The notes below the pieces were generated by a model that saw only the letters and a program-made list of their open reading frames with translations, ran no database searches and was not told where the DNA came from. A DNA stretch of 25,766 bases from a virus, in IMG/VR virus record IMGVR_UViG_3300025590_000035, positions 1 to 25,766 of that record. One strand, 5' to 3'. The position numbers and the translations under genes are program-made. How positions within the stretch are numbered: position 1 is the stretch's first letter; every line of letters begins with the position of its first letter. Positions 1 to 22,893 of the stretch are shown one piece after another.

Positions 1-1727
1 GCGTTAGTTCGTGAACCATCCATATGCTCAACAAACTCGGAAGCATTCTTACCATCAAGTAAATCTGCATCTAAGCCAGAGCCTGAGCCATCTACAGTCT
101 TAACTTTAGTCAGCACCTGTGCTGCCGTATCGGGAGAACCCGCAGCACCAGTAGCTCCCGTAGAACCTGTCGGCCCTTGTGGGCCAGTTGCACCCTGTGG
201 CCCAGTTGAGCCAGTGGAACCTTGTGGCCCTGTTGATCCATCACTACCGTCACTACCGTCACTACCCGCAGCACCAGTAGCACCAGTAGCACCAGTAGCT
301 CCAGTGGCACCTTGTATACCCTGCTGACCTTGTGGCCCTGCGACAGTAGAGTCCGCGCCGGTAGCACCTGTAGCACCTGTAGCTCCTGTAGCTCCTGTAG
401 CTCCTTGTGGCCCTGCGACAGTGGAGTCCGCGCCGGTTGCGCCAGTAGCTCCAGTTAGTCCCTGGATGCCCTGCTGACCTTGAGGGCCGGTACTGCCAGT
501 GGCTCCTGTGTCTCCGCGAGGCACGGTAAGCACACCAGTGCTGCTGTCGTATGCAGCAGAAGACCCTGCGGCACCAGTGGCGGCAGATAGTGAAGTGATG
601 TTGCTCAATGTTGTTGCGGCAGATGCAGCAGAAGTCGAAGCCTCTGACGCTTTAGTTGTGGCTGTAGACGCAGATGTAGCCGCGTTGGAGGCTGAATTTG
701 CAGCCTGTGTAGCTTTTGTAGTCGCTATACCAGCTTGGTTAGTGGCCGTTGTTGCTGAAGTGCTGCTACTTGCGGCTGATGTGCTGGAGGCTGCGGCACT
801 TGCTGCGGCTGCTGCGGCTTCGCTCTGGGCGCTTGACTCAGAACCGCTGGCGTTTGACGCAGATGTACCCGCTGAAGTAGCCGAAGCTGTCGCGCTTGAC
901 GCGCTTGCAGCAGCGGAGGATTGAGATGCTGCGGCAGAAACCTGTGCGGCTTCAGATGCAGCTTGTGCAGTTTCCGAATGTGTCTCAGCAGTTTCCGCAG
1001 ACACTCTAGCTGCAACAGCATTTGTCTCAGCGGTCTCTGCATTTACCTCTGCGGTCTCGGCATTAGTCTCAGCCAGTTCAGCAGCTACTTTCGCTGTGTT
1101 GGCAGAGGTGGCAGATGCTGCGGATTGCGCTGCGGAGGTAGCGGCATTGGAAGCTGACACTGAGGCTTCGCCAGATTTTGTAGTCGCAGTAGCTGCGCTC
1201 GCTGCTGCATTTGTCTCTGAAGTTGCCGCATTACTCGCGGAGGTAGATGCCTCTGAAGATTTAGTCGTTGCAGTAGATGCGGAGGTAGCCGCTGACGTTG
1301 CACTTGATGCCGCATTAGTTTCGGCAGTCTCAGCGTTAGTTTCAGCAGTCTCAGCATTTGTTTCAGCAGTCTCAGCCGCATTTTTTGAAGCGAGTGCAGA
1401 TGCCGCTGATGCAGTTGCCGCTGACGCATCACCCGCAATCGATGATGCTACGTTAGACGCATTTGTAGCTGACGTTGCGGCATTGGCTTCAGATGTAGCC
1501 GCATCATCCGCAGATGTAGCTGAGTTGGCCTCAGATATGGCTGCTGCGTTTTTAGATGCTAGGGCATCGGCTGTGTAGGCATCAGTCGTGGTTTGATCGG
1601 GCGATCCTTGGTAAAAGCCACCTGCTGTGTCCGTCTGCGCGACTGCATCTTCTGCGATTGTTGATTCTGTCGCGTCCGTAGACCCAACGACTGTGTCTGT
1701 CGGATTGTCACCAAAAAAACCACTCAT
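1..1727 (-). CDS. Tail fibre/stalk with collagen-like repeats, partial (C-terminus off the left edge)
   Basis: An open frame of 575 codons runs from the ATG at 1727 to the left edge with no stop. The short N-terminal part (about residues 1-45) is followed by a very Ala/Thr/Ser-rich region (about 45-390) with repeats of the A-E-T-N-A-E-T type, likely a helical or coiled trimeric stalk. About residues 400-533 are collagen-like G-X-Y triplets, mainly GAT, GPQ and GSD. The visible end contains LDADLLDG, a motif seen in many phage side-tail fibres just before receptor-binding or carbohydrate-binding repeats. The start lies 2 nt after the stop of the adaptor gene, with no strong Shine-Dalgarno sequence, which suggests translational coupling. 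The role is presumably host recognition at the virion tail. Family and frame are clear; the receptor and the distal domain cannot be seen. Confidence 0.88.
272..440. repeat. Collagen-like coding repeats in the fibre gene
   Basis: Short 9-bp units (plus strand ACCAGTAGC and ACCTGTAGC types) are tandemly repeated near 272-300 and 361-402. A longer block at 328-365 recurs at 403-440 with 36 of 38 bases identical, 75 bp apart, which is exactly 25 codons. All repeats keep the minus-strand frame and encode G-X-Y triplets, so unequal recombination would change stalk length without breaking the gene. Confidence 0.85.
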
Positions 1728-8819: not shown

Positions 8820-9203
8820 CTATAACTTGCTTGGATCAATGCCAGCTTCCTTGAGTGATGCGAGTGCAGCATCAACATCGTGATTGACCGTGACATCACC
8901 GCTTACGTTAGCATCCACTTCGGTCTTATCCCGCCAACCTGCTCGGTTCTTGAGGAAGAATATGGCTGCGCTTGTGTTGGGTTTGGCTGCATCAGTAGCG
9001 GAGTTGAACAGTTGGTTGGTCACGGCGGTGATGCCTTCCTGCTTGCCAGCCTTTAAGGTGTCGGCAAATAGGTCATCATCCCGCTTACGCCTGGATATAG
9101 TAGACACTGATATGCCAAGGCTTGTAGCTATCTGCTCTTCTGACAGCCCCATCTTTGCTAGGTTGTACAGCTTTTCGTAGTCAATGACCTTAGTGTTAGC
9201 CAA
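8820..9203 (-). CDS. terS: Terminase small subunit
   Basis: A 127-aa DNA-recognition subunit. Residues about 12-40 form a clear helix-turn-helix (LYNLAKMGLSEEQIATSLGI, followed by SVSTISRRKR). The C-terminal half carries AAIFFLKNRAGWRDK, a motif shared by many small terminases, where an oligomerisation helix is followed by the large-subunit contact. It opens the late operon directly upstream of the large subunit, separated by about 140 bp. The start is a TTG at 9203 with GGGAG upstream; a shorter form from the internal Met at residue 18 would cut into the HTH and is less likely. It selects phage DNA for packaging; the pac or cos site was not identified. Confidence 0.85.
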   Translation of the reverse strand: MANTKVIDYEKLYNLAKMGLSEEQIATSLGISVSTISRRKRDDDLFADTLKAGKQEGITAVTNQLFNSATDAAKPNTSAAIFFLKNRAGWRDKTEVDANVSGDVTVNHDVDAALASLKEAGIDPSKL

Positions 9204-9378: not shown

Positions 9379-9843
9379 TTGATAGCAGAAATAACAATGG
9401 CGGTGAGCGCCGCCAAGTCAGCACATAGTTTCATCACGAGGGCAGTCGGTGCTGGCCACAGCATTATGGACTTGTCAGATCGTGTCGCTAATTTTTACGA
9501 CAGCAGAGACGCTGTCCTAGCTGCTGAAGCTGCCAACAAAACAAAAGCAGGGTTTCTTACCAGTGGTTCAGTCGAGGCTGAAGCGTTGCAGATCGTCACA
9601 GCTAAAAAACAGATAGCTGACTTTGAGCGGGACTTGAGGGAGGTCATACTCTATACCGCAGGCAAAGAGTTCTACACCGACATGCTGCGTGAGCGTCGAG
9701 CGATTAAGGATGCCCGCATCAAAGCAGCAAAGTCTAAAGCTGCACGGAAGCAATACCTGATCAACATCGCTGCCATTGCCGGTGCAACACTAGTCATAAC
9801 AGCCATGATGCCTTTCCTAATCGTGGCCCTTGCCAGGAGCTAA
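9379..9843 (+). CDS. Small helical protein with C-terminal membrane anchor
   Basis: A 154-aa protein. Residues 1-35 are mildly hydrophobic and Ala-rich (AAKSAHSFITRAVGAGHSI). Residues 60-125 are a charged helix with ERDLREVILYTAG and RERRAIKDARIKAAKSKAA. Residues about 126-152 are one strong transmembrane segment (LINIAAIAGATLVITAMM). This layout resembles a conserved protein of unknown role in marine T7-like podoviruses, as I recall it. The start is a TTG at 9379 with GGAG 7 nt upstream; an ATG at 9397 is the alternative. It stands alone, oriented against the late operon, with its own extended -10 promoter. A membrane or entry role is possible; a holin role is not supported. Confidence 0.7.
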   Translation: MIAEITMAVSAAKSAHSFITRAVGAGHSIMDLSDRVANFYDSRDAVLAAEAANKTKAGFLTSGSVEAEALQIVTAKKQIADFERDLREVILYTAGKEFYTDMLRERRAIKDARIKAAKSKAARKQYLINIAAIAGATLVITAMMPFLIVALARS

Positions 9844-9850
9844 ATAGCCT

Positions 9851-10121
9851 GCACAGGGCGCACAGGGTGCACAGGGTAAAAAAAGCCACCTGTGCGCCTC
9901 AAAGCCGCATAGCCATTGGGTTTCAAGCAAAATGCACAGGGTACAGGTAAAATTGGACATGTTTGGTAGCTGGGGTTTTTATAGCCTTATAGGTTTATAT
10001 ATCTATCTTTTATTCTCTATTAAATAAAAAAGAGTGATTACCCTGTGCACCCTGTGCATCCCTTACCACGCCTAACTCACAGACGCACAGGTGGACGCAC
10101 AGGTGCCATTTTACCCTGTGC
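9851..10121. repeat. Ten-copy 9-bp iteron array (GCACAGGGT type)
   Basis: Plus-oriented copies are at 9851, 9860 and 9869 (head-to-tail, 9-bp period), 9934, 10085 and 10097 (the last two as 12-bp units GACGCACAGGTG). Inverted copies ACCCTGTGC/CACCTGTGC are at 9887, 10040, 10049 and 10113. The core GCACAGG is invariant in all ten. Copies lie on both sides of an AT-rich stretch. As I recall, phage P4 type I iterons bound by its alpha primase-helicase are GGTGAACAG-like; here the overlapping reading GGTGCACAG is close to that. Confidence 0.85.
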
Positions 10122-10182
10122 ATTTGGCCCTTGCTTGTGCGCCCCACACCTTAAAGGTTAGTATCCACTAACTTAATCACTT

Positions 10183-10255
10183 TTTCCATCTGGAAATAAT
10201 ATGTTCCAACTGGAACCAGTTTTTCCCACGGGAACCGACTTTTCCCACCTGGGAA
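10183..10255. repeat. Four palindromes, TTCC-N4-GGAA, at about 20-bp spacing
   Basis: TTTCCA-TC-TGGAAA (10183-10196), GTTCCA-AC-TGGAAC (10203-10216), TTCCC-AC-GGGAA (10223-10234) and TTCCCA-CC-TGGGAA (10242-10255) are all perfect. Their centres are 20, 19 and 20 bp apart, about two helical turns, so dimers would bind on one face of the DNA. They differ in central bases but keep TTCC and GGAA. An initiator, partition or repressor site array is likely. Confidence 0.85.
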
Positions 10256-10480
10256 TCATCCACCGCTATCATCACCAACATTGTTACTACATACACGCAC
10301 CACAAAAACACGACAATCCTCACAAGTTAACACGACAATTAAGACGGCATTGTAGTGCTTGGCTTGTGTAGCACAAATGCTAAAAGCCTATGAGTGACAT
10401 GCATAAAAGTGCATGGGTCAGGCACTAATAGGCGCATATAAATGTATACCACAGTGCACAAAGTATATTTTATGGCACAT

Positions 10481-10502
10481 AAAAAAAACCGCCCGAAGGC
10501 GG
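10481..10502 (-). terminator. Rho-independent terminator of the early minus operon
   Basis: On the minus strand CCGCC-TTCG-GGCGG is followed directly by eight T residues. It lies 30 bp after the stop of the 32-aa membrane protein gene and closes the operon. Confidence 0.9.
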
Positions 10503-10531
10503 CAAAGGTTCACTCAGGGGAGAGTAATCGG

Positions 10532-13018: not shown

Positions 13019-13274
13019 CAACACTTCCTCCACATTTTATACAACTCAAATAAATTTCTACTCGCTCCACTCGCTGGTCGCCATAAGACTCCATGTTCAC
13101 CTCACGTTCCGCATAGACATCGTGCTTATCGATGCCACCGCACCGCTCACAGTCGTAGTCGAACAAATCCTCTTCTTCTTCTTGCTCATCGACCACGGGC
13201 TTATTGAATATTGCGTCGAAGTTTGCAGAGAACTGATCGTGATCAGTTGGTCGTTGCTTGCTACCTTTTCCCAT
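13008..13274 (-). CDS. Zinc-ribbon phage protein
   Basis: An 88-aa protein beginning MGKGSKQRPTD, a start shared by many small phage proteins. It has an acidic linker (DEQEEEEDLFDYD) and two CxxC knuckles, CERCGG (near residue 42) and CIKCGG (near 78), that together would bind one zinc ion. Its ATG overlaps the primase stop by one base (TAATG), tying it to the replication gene. Nucleic acid binding is plausible; its partner is unknown. Confidence 0.7.
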   Translation of the reverse strand: MGKGSKQRPTDHDQFSANFDAIFNKPVVDEQEEEEDLFDYDCERCGGIDKHDVYAEREVNMESYGDQRVERVEIYLSCIKCGGSVDEK

Positions 13275-15541
13275 TACATATCTCCCCAGTTGTCAGGATC
13301 GAGGGGGTCAGTGTTTGGCCCGATGTCTAATGTTGCCCACTCGATGTTGCTTAAATTGTTTGCAGCCTCAAATATCCAACGTGCCGCCTCAGTGGTGTTG
13401 ACCTTCACTGTCCGATAACGGTGACCCGCATCGGATCGCATAGCGCCGTCTTGAAACATGTTGTCGAACGACTTCATACGCTTCCAGAAAGGTGCCTCCT
13501 TCATCGGAACCTCAAACTTATTTGATCGGAGGCTGCTTACATATATGTCGTATATTTCAGACTTTGGAGCCTCTTCACCGAAGTTCACCACGTTGCCTGC
13601 TACGCGGTTCTCACGCATCTCGCCGGTCTGCAAGCAGTTGTAAATCCATGCGGTGACGTTATCCAAAGCCTCTAACTTCTGATCTGTAAGCGCCTCAGTT
13701 TGCGGCACCAGGCGTAGGTTGATATTTGTCAGGTCGAAGTTACGCAGGTAATGGATCAGCGCGTTGGCCCCACCGGCCTCATACCACGCGGTAAGACCGG
13801 CAAAGTATTCGCTGTCCTGCTGCCTAGAGTTGCCGACATCAAAAACGGCAAACCTCCGCTCATCGAGGCTTGCAGGAACAACGTAGTCGTCGTTACTGGT
13901 AAATAAAATGCGGGTGTAGTTTGGCGCCGTGTAGCTGTCTACACCCTTGCGCTCGATCTGAATCTTGTCGTTGGTCATCAGGTCTTTCAACGCACCCTCA
14001 GAGGCTTTTGCGCCAGCCCAGTAAGCCTCATCTGCTTGTAGCAGCAGCGTGTCTTCAAGGTGCCGGTTAAAGTTGCCGGTGATATGTTCAGCACGGCTAA
14101 CTATTTTGTGATGCGCGGCTACTAGGCCACCCAGCATCTCACCGAACTTGGTCTTGCCTGTGCCTTTACGGCCTCTAAGAACAAGCCCGACACCAACCTT
14201 AGTCATAGGCTTCTGGATCATCTGCGCGGCCCAGGCGACTATATAGTTGGCGTATACAGCGTTGCCGTCAGCGACCACATCGGTGACAAAGTCAAGCCAC
14301 GGCTGCACATCACCCTCCCTCGCTTCGTAACTCCAACCCCGCCACAGGTTGTAGCGTTGAAGCACCTGCATATCTGGGGCAAAAGTAAGGCCAGCCGCAT
14401 AGGTTCTGCGCTCTGGGTGTTCAAGCCACATATCTACTAGATTAATTAGCTTGGGCTTTTCATCGCCCGACAAGACCCGACAGTTCATATGTTCTTTTTT
14501 TAGATCGTCTAGCTTGTACAGCACCAGATTGTCTTTGTTTAGGTCTTCACGCATCACACGCGCCGACCCTTCAACATGTACAAATGCCCACTCTCTGAGC
14601 ATCTTAGGTAGCCGCTCTTCCTTGATCTCTTCACGCACAGCCTCAACCTCCATAGCCTTCACGCTGGCGAGGGTTACTGGCGTCTTGCTGCTGCTATCAA
14701 AGGTTGCGTACCTGCGCTCACACTGCCCGTCGATGTACGTCTCACCGTCAGATGACCAGTCGTCCCAGATCATCCAGCCTGTGTCGTCACCATCGAAGTG
14801 GTGATGCAGCGCCATGCCTACCCTCACCCACTCGTCGTGATGACAGTTCGCATCAACCGATTCTAGTAATTGACGGACGCCTTGTTCATCTACATCCATC
14901 TTGGGCCGAAACATCGACAGGTCGTCTGGATCAACGTCTGCGGGCGACATACCCTTTCGGGCCAATTCCCAGCCGTCCTGCTGCCCCGCGATCTCTTCAA
15001 AATAGGCAATGAATGCTTTTGCCTGATCTATCGTTATTAGCGGCAACTCACTATGCGACACATCGGCGATACTCTTGCCACGAACCCACTTGTAAGGCTC
15101 GTTGGTCGCAGGATGTATGCCGTAAGCCACAAACTGCTGCCCGTCTGCTAACACCTCAACGGCGTGTTTAGAGCCGACCTCATCCTCATATTCACAGGAT
15201 CGAATCTTAGAAAAGCCGCCCTCAACTCTAAAAGGTAGGATGCACTTCGGCGCTTGGCCTACTCTCGTTAGCGACCTGCCGATATTTTCATCTACCCACT
15301 TGAGCAGCTTGTAATTCACATCTCTATTTAAGCAGTCGATATCAACTGCAACTGTGTTTCGGCAGAGAACGCCTACACCACCATCAGCGTGACCATTCCC
15401 AAGCCACTTATCTACATCTTCGTGAGTGGCCCTGATGTCCTGCCACCCTTTTAACATGGGCGCTTTTTTGCCCTTCATTATGGGAACAATTTCGTAGCCG
15501 TTATCGACTAGCTGATGGCCGTGTTGCTTTAAAAACGCCAT
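13274..15541 (-). CDS. Primase-helicase: AEP primase/polymerase with SF3-type helicase
   Basis: A 755-aa replication protein. Residues 1-160 are an archaeo-eukaryotic primase (Prim-Pol) domain with VAVDIDC (D67, D69) and the SKHAVEVLADG motif (H126). About 210-300 resemble a PriCT-type helical domain (EWVRVGMALHH and DDWSSDG). About 440-600 are a DUF5906/VapE-like P-loop helicase: GRKGTGKT (457-464), LLLQADEA (499-506), FTSND sensor (547-551) and DERR arginine finger (560-563). The layout parallels P4 alpha-type initiators, which prime, unwind and bind iterons. The start at 15541 has GAGG at ideal spacing. It likely starts replication at the repeat array near 9.85-10.12 kb. Confidence 0.9.
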   Translation of the reverse strand: MAFLKQHGHQLVDNGYEIVPIMKGKKAPMLKGWQDIRATHEDVDKWLGNGHADGGVGVLCRNTVAVDIDCLNRDVNYKLLKWVDENIGRSLTRVGQAPKCILPFRVEGGFSKIRSCEYEDEVGSKHAVEVLADGQQFVAYGIHPATNEPYKWVRGKSIADVSHSELPLITIDQAKAFIAYFEEIAGQQDGWELARKGMSPADVDPDDLSMFRPKMDVDEQGVRQLLESVDANCHHDEWVRVGMALHHHFDGDDTGWMIWDDWSSDGETYIDGQCERRYATFDSSSKTPVTLASVKAMEVEAVREEIKEERLPKMLREWAFVHVEGSARVMREDLNKDNLVLYKLDDLKKEHMNCRVLSGDEKPKLINLVDMWLEHPERRTYAAGLTFAPDMQVLQRYNLWRGWSYEAREGDVQPWLDFVTDVVADGNAVYANYIVAWAAQMIQKPMTKVGVGLVLRGRKGTGKTKFGEMLGGLVAAHHKIVSRAEHITGNFNRHLEDTLLLQADEAYWAGAKASEGALKDLMTNDKIQIERKGVDSYTAPNYTRILFTSNDDYVVPASLDERRFAVFDVGNSRQQDSEYFAGLTAWYEAGGANALIHYLRNFDLTNINLRLVPQTEALTDQKLEALDNVTAWIYNCLQTGEMRENRVAGNVVNFGEEAPKSEIYDIYVSSLRSNKFEVPMKEAPFWKRMKSFDNMFQDGAMRSDAGHRYRTVKVNTTEAARWIFEAANNLSNIEWATLDIGPNTDPLDPDNWGDM

Positions 15542-15571: not shown

Positions 15572-15742
15572 TTATTTTTTTAATTGGTTTGCAAGTATCG
15601 CCCAGTGGTCGCAGTAAGCTGAAAAAGATAAAAGCTTCACCGACATCCAATGCGCTATGGGTGACGCGATGCGGGTCACCTTCTCAACCGCTCGCCAGTA
15701 CCAAATTCCCGCAACCTCTTTAATTCTTTCTAGACGTTTCAT
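15572..15742 (-). CDS. 56-aa protein, unknown function
   Basis: The start is the ATG at 15742 (MKRLERIKEV) with GAGGT upstream, inside the end of the regulator gene. Residues 1-25 are basic and amphipathic. Residues about 25-50 are moderately hydrophobic (IASPIAHWMSVKLLSFSAY), perhaps membrane-associated. It lies between the regulator and the primase, 30 bp before the primase start. Confidence 0.5.
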   Translation of the reverse strand: MKRLERIKEVAGIWYWRAVEKVTRIASPIAHWMSVKLLSFSAYCDHWAILANQLKK

Positions 15743-16001
15743 AAATGACCTCGCTCGACTGTTCATAATCCGCAACGATGTCTGGACACATCCGTTTCCA
15801 CGACACCACGCCTTTTGCCATTAGTTCCATTTGCAACGCTCTATGGGCTGGAACAACCCCTGTTTGTCGCCACTTACTCAACGCCTGCTTGCTTACGTCC
15901 AGGCGACGAGCCAGGGCGTTGCAGTTTTTCACGCCAGAAGATTTCACCACATCATCAATCGCTGACCGCACTTCATCAGCAAACTCGCTAACAAAATTCA
16001 T
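15720..16001 (-). CDS. Cro/YdaS-like HTH regulator
   Basis: A 93-aa protein with one helix-turn-helix at about residues 28-58 (ALARRLDVSKQALSKWRQTG, then VVPAHRALQME). That pattern, with a Trp after the recognition helix and a conserved PAHRA segment, is typical of Cro and YdaS-type phage regulators. It is the first gene of the minus early operon and lies beside a divergent control region with paired operators, so it likely represses its own promoter and tunes the opposite replication operon. The start at 16001 has GAGG 8 nt upstream. No CI partner is visible. Confidence 0.82.
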   Translation of the reverse strand: MNFVSEFADEVRSAIDDVVKSSGVKNCNALARRLDVSKQALSKWRQTGVVPAHRALQMELMAKGVVSWKRMCPDIVADYEQSSEVIYETSRKN

Positions 16002-17267: not shown

Positions 17268-17815
17268 TGACTACAATCACGCTTAAAAATGTACGCTTAT
17301 CATTCCCACAAATCTGGACTCCGAAGGCATATGTAGAGGGCCAAACAGCTAAATACTCAGCAAATCTATTGCTCGATAAAGATGGCGACAAAGAACAACT
17401 CGACCAGCTTAAAAAAGCGATAAAGCAAGCCGCAACGGTTAGCTTTAACGGCGAGATACCAAAGGGTTTGAAGACCTTTTTGGGGGACGGCAATGAAAAA
17501 GCATATGACGGCTATGAAAATGCAATGTTTGTTAGCTGTTCCAGCCGCCAGCGGCCAAGCACCATCGACCGCGACCGAGTTCAGTTGGTTGAAGAAGACG
17601 GAAAGCTGTACGCCGGTTGCTATGTAAACGCTGCAATTTCACTTTGGGTACAAAACAACACATGGGGCAAGCGCGTTAACTGTAACTTGTTAGCCCTTCA
17701 GTTCGTGAAAGACGGCGAAACTTTTGGGGCTGGTGGCGTGAAAGTCGAAGAGATGTTTGACGATATTTCTTCTGAACAAGCAGATGACGCTGCTGATGAT
17801 GATTTTCTTAGCTGA
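17267..17815 (+). CDS. DUF2815 protein, likely ssDNA-binding
   Basis: A 182-aa protein with the family start TTITLKNVRLSFPQIWTPKA. The core has KYSANLLLDKDGD and a long NAAISLWVQNNTWGKRVNCN region, an OB-like strand pattern. The C-terminus is acidic and ends DDDFLS, recalling the tails of SSB proteins that recruit partners. DUF2815 is nearly always next to DUF2800 and PolA in such phages, and an ssDNA-binding role is the common inference rather than an established fact. A terminator follows 12 bp after the stop. Confidence 0.85.
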   Translation: MTTITLKNVRLSFPQIWTPKAYVEGQTAKYSANLLLDKDGDKEQLDQLKKAIKQAATVSFNGEIPKGLKTFLGDGNEKAYDGYENAMFVSCSSRQRPSTIDRDRVQLVEEDGKLYAGCYVNAAISLWVQNNTWGKRVNCNLLALQFVKDGETFGAGGVKVEEMFDDISSEQADDAADDDFLS

Positions 17816-21670: not shown

Positions 21671-21874
21671 ATGATCAGACCGTATTACACCATGCAGGAA
21701 CTTGCAGAGATTATGTCGATGAGCCTTAAAGGCTTACACAATGCGCTGCACAATAAACAGTTCCCCATCCCAACGTACAAGTTGGGTAAGCGCAGAGTGG
21801 CAGACAAGGAAGTTGTAGAGCGTTTTTTTGATCAGAAACGCTCTGAGGGCATGGATAGGATGGCTGAAAATTAG
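21671..21874 (+). CDS. AlpA/excisionase-like HTH protein
   Basis: A 67-aa winged-HTH protein of the MerR/AlpA type: YYTMQELAEIMSMSLKGLHN, then PTYKLGKRRVADKEVVERFF. That pattern is typical of small excisionases and AlpA regulators. It is the last gene of the plus replication operon, and its stop overlaps the integrase stop on the other strand (TAG at 21872-21874, integrase TAA at 21871-21873). The position suggests it controls integrase direction during excision. It could instead be a simple transcription regulator; no direct proof is visible. Confidence 0.75.
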   Translation: MIRPYYTMQELAEIMSMSLKGLHNALHNKQFPIPTYKLGKRRVADKEVVERFFDQKRSEGMDRMAEN

Positions 21875-22893
21875 TTAGACAGCATCGCCAAAACCTTTTT
21901 TGGTGTGAGGTGCGTGTAGCGTTTGAGCATGTTCAAGTCCTTGTGACCGCTGAACAGGCTCACTGTCATCGCATCTAAACCTCTTTCAAACAAGCGGCTG
22001 CATCCTTCATGGCGCAAGTCATGCCAGCGGATTTCACCTACACCGGCTTTCTCACGCGCTTTTCTGAAGGCATTTGACACGCTGTCGCCATCATATGGAA
22101 ATATAAACTTCTCTTCGCCAGACACGGAAATCTGCTTTTTGATAATTTCTACCGCTTCTGGCAGCAAAGGCACCCGCTCGTCACGTTTTTTCTTCGGGTG
22201 TTTACGCCGTCGAATTAACACCGATTCTTCACCCTCAGTCAGATCAAGATCATCCCACTCAAGACGCACAACCTCTGCTCTGCGCATTGCGGTATGAATA
22301 GCGAATCTAGCCAACTCAGCAATAGGCATTTTGGTGTAACCAACATTCGCCAGTATTAAATCTAGCTCCCTGTCGCTGCACCGCGTGTCTCTGTGATCGC
22401 TCTCACCAATGACACCGATACGCTTTAATGTTCTGTGCGCCTTCCGATACACTTCGAGGTCGTAGTCTAATTCCCACATATCTTTAGCAGTAGATAGGAT
22501 CACCCCAAGTTGAATCATCTCGCCCATCACCGTAGACGGGTGTCTACCTCTGCCTATGGCGTAGTCCATAATAGCCTTGGTAGTTAGGTCTTTTAACTTT
22601 AAACGGCCCAGAGATGAGCGTCTGAGGTACTCTATGTGATCGCTCTTAGTCCGACCCCACTTTTGTATAGGCCACAACTCAGATGAGTACCTGCGGCACA
22701 GCAACCCGAAATTTGTTTCTTCTTGGCAATACTCGCCACGCTCAATAGCGGCCTCAGTGTCTCTGGCCCACGCTTTGGCATCTTCTTTAAGGGTGAATGT
22801 CTTAGATATTGGCTTCTTCAGGTCAACGCGCCTTATTTGTGCCATGTGTCTGATAACACCTTTTGATGTCTTTTTCTTTGTAAATGTTGCCAT
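21871..22893 (-). CDS. int: Tyrosine integrase, probable dusA-targeting type
   Basis: A 340-aa recombinase. The N-terminal arm-binding region (about 1-60) has KGVIRHMAQIRR. The core-binding helical domain spans about 60-160. The catalytic set is R204 (AMRRAEV), a Lys-rich beta-hairpin (RRRKHPKKKRDERVPL), H291-R294 (WHDLRHEG), H317 (SGHKDL) and Y326 (RYTHL), all present. The length is normal. The start at 22893 lies 180 bp from a site that copies dusA, which marks it as a candidate dusA-associated integrase. It is transcribed toward the excisionase candidate, so the two transcripts collide. Integration would place it next to the rebuilt dusA, divergently. Confidence 0.95.
   Translation of the reverse strand: MATFTKKKTSKGVIRHMAQIRRVDLKKPISKTFTLKEDAKAWARDTEAAIERGEYCQEETNFGLLCRRYSSELWPIQKWGRTKSDHIEYLRRSSLGRLKLKDLTTKAIMDYAIGRGRHPSTVMGEMIQLGVILSTAKDMWELDYDLEVYRKAHRTLKRIGVIGESDHRDTRCSDRELDLILANVGYTKMPIAELARFAIHTAMRRAEVVRLEWDDLDLTEGEESVLIRRRKHPKKKRDERVPLLPEAVEIIKKQISVSGEEKFIFPYDGDSVSNAFRKAREKAGVGEIRWHDLRHEGCSRLFERGLDAMTVSLFSGHKDLNMLKRYTHLTPKKVLAMLSN

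Follow-up and report, generated by a model that had tools for sequence, protein, structure and literature searches.

We propose, at a probability of about 0.87, that positions 9851-10140 of the window, the whole 25.8-kb stretch of virus DNA analysed here, serve as a replication origin, with the phage's own AEP primase-SF3 helicase as initiator: its C-terminal winged helix would bind the iterons, and the enzyme would melt the AT-rich core. The primary support comes from the repeat array with its conservation and layout, the predicted winged helix and the iteron's co-variation with the primase C-terminus, from which we infer binding, melting, priming and the start site. An initial annotation had claimed a P4-like origin with the AEP primase-helicase as its binder, and this claim appears to be supported, at the level of sequence comparison, by the co-variation and by the conservation in close relatives. 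The virus record also encodes an SU10-type portal, a terminase, a family A DNA polymerase, an SNF2 helicase, a tyrosine integrase and a Cro/YdaS-like regulator; the latter two suggest that the phage is temperate (Table 1).

A single two-strand iteron array in the window

The array region (9844-10255) is noncoding and contains ten exact copies of GCACAGG within 9851-10121, six on the plus and four on the minus strand, and two further copies carry one mismatch. This recount agrees with the initial annotation, which had reported ten such repeats on both strands around an AT-rich stretch. The GC content reaches its minimum (18%) in the 60-bp interval starting at 9976. The 25.8 kb contain a single two-strand 8-mer array at n ≥ 6, and none of 200 dinucleotide shuffles produced a two-strand array even at n ≥ 5; likewise, 27 unrelated control viral contigs (225 kb) yielded none at n ≥ 6. 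The array is not due to chance and lies far above the shuffle expectation. A phage nucleotide search with the region returned only short chance matches or terminator matches, and the GC skew of the window tracks gene strand, is uninformative on origin position and lends no support.

Table 1 Features of the candidate origin, its proposed initiator and neighbouring genes
Feature	Position	Strand	Basis
Terminase small subunit (TerS), HTH protein	8820..9203		
ORF154, left neighbour of the array	9379..9843	+	
Left iteron cluster, GCACAGG x3 (9851, 9860, 9869), 9-bp tandem period	9851..9875	+	
Single GCACAGG iteron, opposite strand	9889..9895	-	
GCACAGG iteron (9934) and degenerate GTACAGG, one mismatch (9941)	9934..9947	+	
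AT-rich core, 26% GC, putative melting site	9966..10038	n/a	
Right iteron cluster, GCACAGG x2 (10042, 10051), 9-bp period	10042..10057	-	
GCACAGG iterons at 10085 and 10097, 12-bp period	10085..10103	+	
GCACAGG iteron (10115) and degenerate GCACAAG, one mismatch (10134)	10115..10140	-	
Four TTCC-N4-6-GGAA palindromes (10184, 10204, 10223, 10242), spacing 20/19/19 bp, accessory	10184..10255	n/a	
Terminator-like hairpin, end of minus-strand operon, between operon and array	10488..10503	-	
AEP primase-SF3 helicase, 755 residues, proposed initiator; Prim-Pol, PriCT_2, DUF5906/VapE-like	13274..15541	-	Pfam
C-terminal winged-helix domain, residues 628-730, proposed iteron-binding domain	13352..13660	-	AlphaFold2
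Codon of wing residue 701 (Met in the window), co-varying with the iteron	13439..13441	-	
Cro/YdaS-like HTH protein	15720..16001		
Tyrosine integrase	21871..22893		

Conserved layout with changing iterons

We compared the region with a close set of 28 IMG/VR loci encoding the same primase, and with wider relatives collected via the terminase and via a diverse primase alignment. All close relatives with enough downstream DNA carry the array, including L020, whose primase is 79% identical; this comparison of relatives sharing the primase-helicase had been named at the outset as a way to challenge the origin. For 51 loci, some of them on the same contig, 4 kb or more of sequence downstream of the primase was available; 34 of these carry a strict two-strand array, and the array of several others is degenerate. 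The iteron differs by lineage (GCACAGG, TCACAGG, ACTCAGG, CACGGG, TACAAGG, GGTCAAGG, and CGTTCAAGG in L017), and despite the changed iteron the order of orientations (e.g., +++-++--+---) is much the same across lineages. An AT-rich segment lies within the array in 30 of 30 sequences examined (lowest 40-bp interval, 7-28% GC), and a second two-strand array occurs at a single locus only across 1.68 Mb of relatives' DNA. A few distant relatives, most of them with R701, show no array; L193, L201, and L207 (R701, primase about 50% identical) have no two-strand array in the 9 kb downstream of the primase, and L164 (Y701) has none in the 3.4 kb examined. Downstream of the primase in L192, L202, L224, and L195, copies of CACGGG occur with clusters of five or six CACAGG on both strands, which are possibly an older or mixed iteron set.

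A primase-helicase as candidate initiator

The AEP primase-helicase matches PF09250, PF08707, and PF19263 above cut-off in one protein, and no other initiator candidate was recognised in the window, in line with the initial annotation, which had called it the only strong one. Its stop codon lies 3.1 kb upstream of the array, with open frames between, and the closest solved structure by sequence for its helicase region is that of NrS-1 polymerase (6k9c/6k9e). Prediction of the whole primase from 11 close sequences was of low confidence (pLDDT 34), and AlphaFold2 with 42 sequences for the C-terminal 160 residues gave a winged-helix topology (pLDDT 80.5, pTM 0.69) in which residue 701 falls in the first wing strand. 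The C-terminal model matched winged helices of ORC, Cdc6, Cdt1, RFX5, replication terminator protein, and the P4 origin-binding domain 1ka8; the latter match (Z 4.5, rmsd 3.2, 72 residues) was not above those to other winged helices. In sequence searches, the C-terminal family had no significant match in Pfam or PDB, and hhalign of the domain against the P4 alpha DNA-binding domain gave a probability of 0.2 percent. Because no structural match stands out, the matches to this predicted model support a winged-helix fold but not P4 homology.

Coupled variation of iteron and primase C-terminus

Iteron distance was correlated with primase C-terminal distance (residues 641-755) across 26 lineages (Mantel 0.43, P = 0.0005), also with the helicase domain partialled out (0.39, P = 0.0005), in tests that permute labels on related sequences and are not fully phylogeny-aware. 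The corresponding value for iteron against TerS distance, with the primase C-terminus partialled out, was -0.28. The sister pair L131 and L136 gives a closer view: their primases agree at 733 of 754 positions (97%), with winged-helix residues 687, 691, 700, and 701 among the differences, and all 12 of 12 iterons differ at one same base (GCAC vs GTAC), whichever strand the site occupies. Identity between the two arrays is 62% inside the sites and 83% outside them; the TerS proteins of the pair also differ (70% identical). The co-variation of repeats and primase C-terminus in relatives, suggested initially as a check, was thus found in both the Mantel comparison and this pair, and it points to the primase-helicase as the protein reading the array.

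We further noted a correspondence at residue 701, where M or Q goes with CACAGG or CTCAGG iterons, H occurs in all CACGGG lineages (two separate ones, L131 and the L145 group), Y is paired with TCAAGG both in the L120 group and in the separate lineage of L017, and N with TACAAGG. L017, looked at after the rule had been noted, combines Y701 with its iteron in a winged helix 86% identical to that of L020 (Q701, GCACAGG). The rule is backed by its recurrence in distant lineages and by position, and we offer it as a hypothesis because one-column uniqueness is not significant alone; for H701, pseudo-groups yield 0-9 unique columns.

Under the mechanism that we consider most likely, the AEP primase-SF3 helicase would bind the GCACAGG iterons via its C-terminal winged helix, assemble with helicase rings formed on both sides of the core, and melt the AT-rich DNA. 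Its Prim-Pol domain would then prime the leading strands at both forks, and the family A DNA polymerase of the phage would extend the primed strands. This scheme is modelled on P4 alpha (PMC4234260), PICI Rep (PMC6092414), and the SaPI and SCCmec helicases (PMC7581432).

Similar arrays in other phages

A motif-only DNA scan of viral contigs for GCACAGGGTGCACAGGGT detected four noncoding two-strand arrays (L065, L048, L050, and L033) in contigs missed by the primase search. A VapE-like helicase directly adjoins the array in L065 and L048, a Prim-Pol/DUF3987 protein is encoded on the array contig in L050, and L033 is a 7.6-kb fragment with an array and no recognised initiator. A match in a Celeribacter genome (L235) was rejected as an independent case, as its array is the same as that of L065. 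Most exact 18-mer matches in viral contigs and 20-mer matches in cellular genomes were rejected as arrays since they are same-strand repeats; in the cases read, these correspond to collagen-like Gly-Ala-Gln codons in open frames. The window itself contains a tail-fibre-like gene with collagen-like Gly-X-Y repeats (1-1727, minus strand), and repeats of this type account for many same-strand GCACAGGGT database matches.

Among eight other phages with related AEP helicases, five (VP5, phiVC8, RDJL1, BUCT555, and RHph_X2_30) carry a two-strand array of 7-8 copies, composed of GGTGGACA in the Vibrio phages VP5 and phiVC8 and of other sequences in the remaining three. Only weak arrays were found in YuA, TM26, and Pam3. 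In the Pseudanabaena phage Pam3 (L077), a repeat region of about 200 bp with GAACTGCA on both strands occurs twice (17306-17511 and 49657-49861), a possible duplicated origin. We found no iteron arrays described for AEP phages in the open-access literature that we searched, where absence is weak evidence.

Alternative roles of the array

The main rival to an origin is a packaging site, at which TerS would bind the repeats and TerL cut nearby, because arrays often lie near terS: in many relatives some 0.6-1.7 kb separate the array from terL, and in L065, L048, L033, L050, VP5, phiVC8, and BUCT555 the terminase is nearby. The discordant pairs speak against such a role. The window and L013 share the iteron despite diverged TerS (64% identical; primase C-terminus, 90%), whereas L131 and L123 differ in iteron despite similar TerS (87%) and TerL (98%), and the negative partial correlation given above leaves the repeat sequence without TerS co-variation once the primase C-terminus is accounted for. 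Moreover, the arrays of RDJL1 and RHph_X2_30 lie 2-3 kb from the primase but about 5 and 19 kb from terS, and the matching P4 repeats carry an origin annotation. Given the discordant pairs, the arrays far from terS, and the annotated function of the P4 repeats, we rejected packaging as improbable.

An operator, bound by a regulator to control transcription, would fit short intergenic repeats on two strands in a genome that encodes an HTH protein (the Cro/YdaS-like product in Table 1). However, both flanking units converge on the array, as first described, with ORF154 reading in from the left on the plus strand and a minus-strand operon from the right; no sigma-70-like promoter was found vs 2.9 expected; the arrangement, with iteron sets on either side of an AT-rich core, is that of an origin; and the co-variation partner is the primase C-terminus. 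Transcriptional control is thus a very unlikely role. Direct and inverted repeats of this sort also occur at centromeres and as copy-control iterons, yet a role in the partition or incompatibility of a plasmid-like prophage is the least credible alternative, given that the proteins examined included none recognised as a partition protein and that the tyrosine integrase suggests integration.

Relation to known replication systems

P4 and the PICIs already provide examples of an initiator helicase combined with two sets of iterons that flank an AT-rich segment. In P4, the repeats annotated as ori type 1 have the sequence GGTGAACAG, occur on both strands around an AT-rich stretch and recur every 9 bp in tandem in crr; a terminator separates them from alpha, which lies upstream. 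P4 and the window thus share GGTGNACAG-type iterons on two strands, with a 9-bp period, around an AT-rich segment and an array downstream of the initiator past a terminator. The window iteron GGTGCACAG differs from that of P4 by one mismatch in nine, and the iterons of relatives diverge further; the P4 iteron given in the initial annotation was right in 8 of 9 bases and wrong in one. P4 alpha unites primase, helicase, and a C-terminal winged-helix origin-binding domain in one protein (PMC4234260), and the window protein likewise fuses a primase and an SF3-type helicase, both assigned by Pfam, to a predicted C-terminal winged helix. In contrast, its primase is an AEP Prim-Pol rather than the TOPRIM type of P4 (PMC4234260), P4 has separate ori and crr with the array next to alpha whereas the array here is distant from the primase gene (3.1 kb), and P4 is a satellite whereas the window derives from a tailed phage that itself encodes terminase and portal. 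The parallel to P4 alpha drawn initially therefore holds for the layout and the winged-helix fold; it does not extend to the primase domain, and the sequence comparison of the DNA-binding domains was not significant.

PICI/SaPI origins are defined by two iteron sets flanking an AT-rich region (PMC6092414), the arrangement found here, but the PICI origin lies immediately 3' of rep, whereas the candidate in this tailed phage lineage is 3.1 kb downstream of the primase stop. The window protein combines Prim-Pol, PriCT_2, and an SF3-type helicase as do the NrS-1 and pRN1 proteins, and it resembles the NrS-1 primase-polymerase in having Prim-Pol with a hexameric SF3-type helicase ring. NrS-1 polymerase requires an 8-nt template site, of which its genome has only two, and the consulted passages of that report mention no iteron array (PMC7102993). 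The pRN1-type proteins also share the order of AEP primase, SF3 helicase, and C-terminal winged helix, and are proposed to assemble at a stem-loop rather than at iterons (PMC4234260), whereas phages of this lineage carry iteron arrays. The SCCmec helicase Cch2 recognises short direct repeats, located close to its own operon, through its C-terminal domain (PMC7581432); that system differs from the window in its separate primase and three 5-nt iterons.

New, within the literature we searched, are an AEP tailed-phage lineage with an origin of this kind and a natural series of coupled iteron and winged-helix changes. We lean slightly towards a broader reading in which AEP-helicase tailed phages share one P4/PICI-like class of two-strand iteron origins, initiator and origin re-code together fast, with a few winged-helix residues (including 701) switching a dozen iterons on a fixed layout, and the GGTGCACAG iteron is shared by unrelated VapE/PrimPol phages. 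It is a long-standing question, for which nature offers few series, how an initiator and a dozen copies of its site can alter their specificity in concert; these phages provide such a series, with six or more iteron types on a single conserved layout and a sister pair whose initiators are 97% identical. The residue-to-base rule becomes directly testable, the P4/PICI origin layout is extended to autonomous tailed phages, and origins in metagenomic phages may be located by looking for AEP helicases that occur together with two-strand arrays.

Elements next to the array

The initial annotation had described a two-part origin, with four regularly spaced palindromes following the repeats. Their number and spacing were borne out, and TTCC-N2-6-GGAA has no copies beyond these four in the 25.8 kb. 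Their copy number falls from 4 to 1 among close relatives, and they are absent beside most other arrays, for which reason we rejected them as a conserved origin component; the repeat array with its AT-rich core is the part of that description that stands. The palindromes look like sites for some other protein. L107 has two, located on the opposite side of the array. A further repeat, AACACGACAAT, occurs twice in the window, 22 bp apart (10307-10339), after the palindromes and before the terminator.
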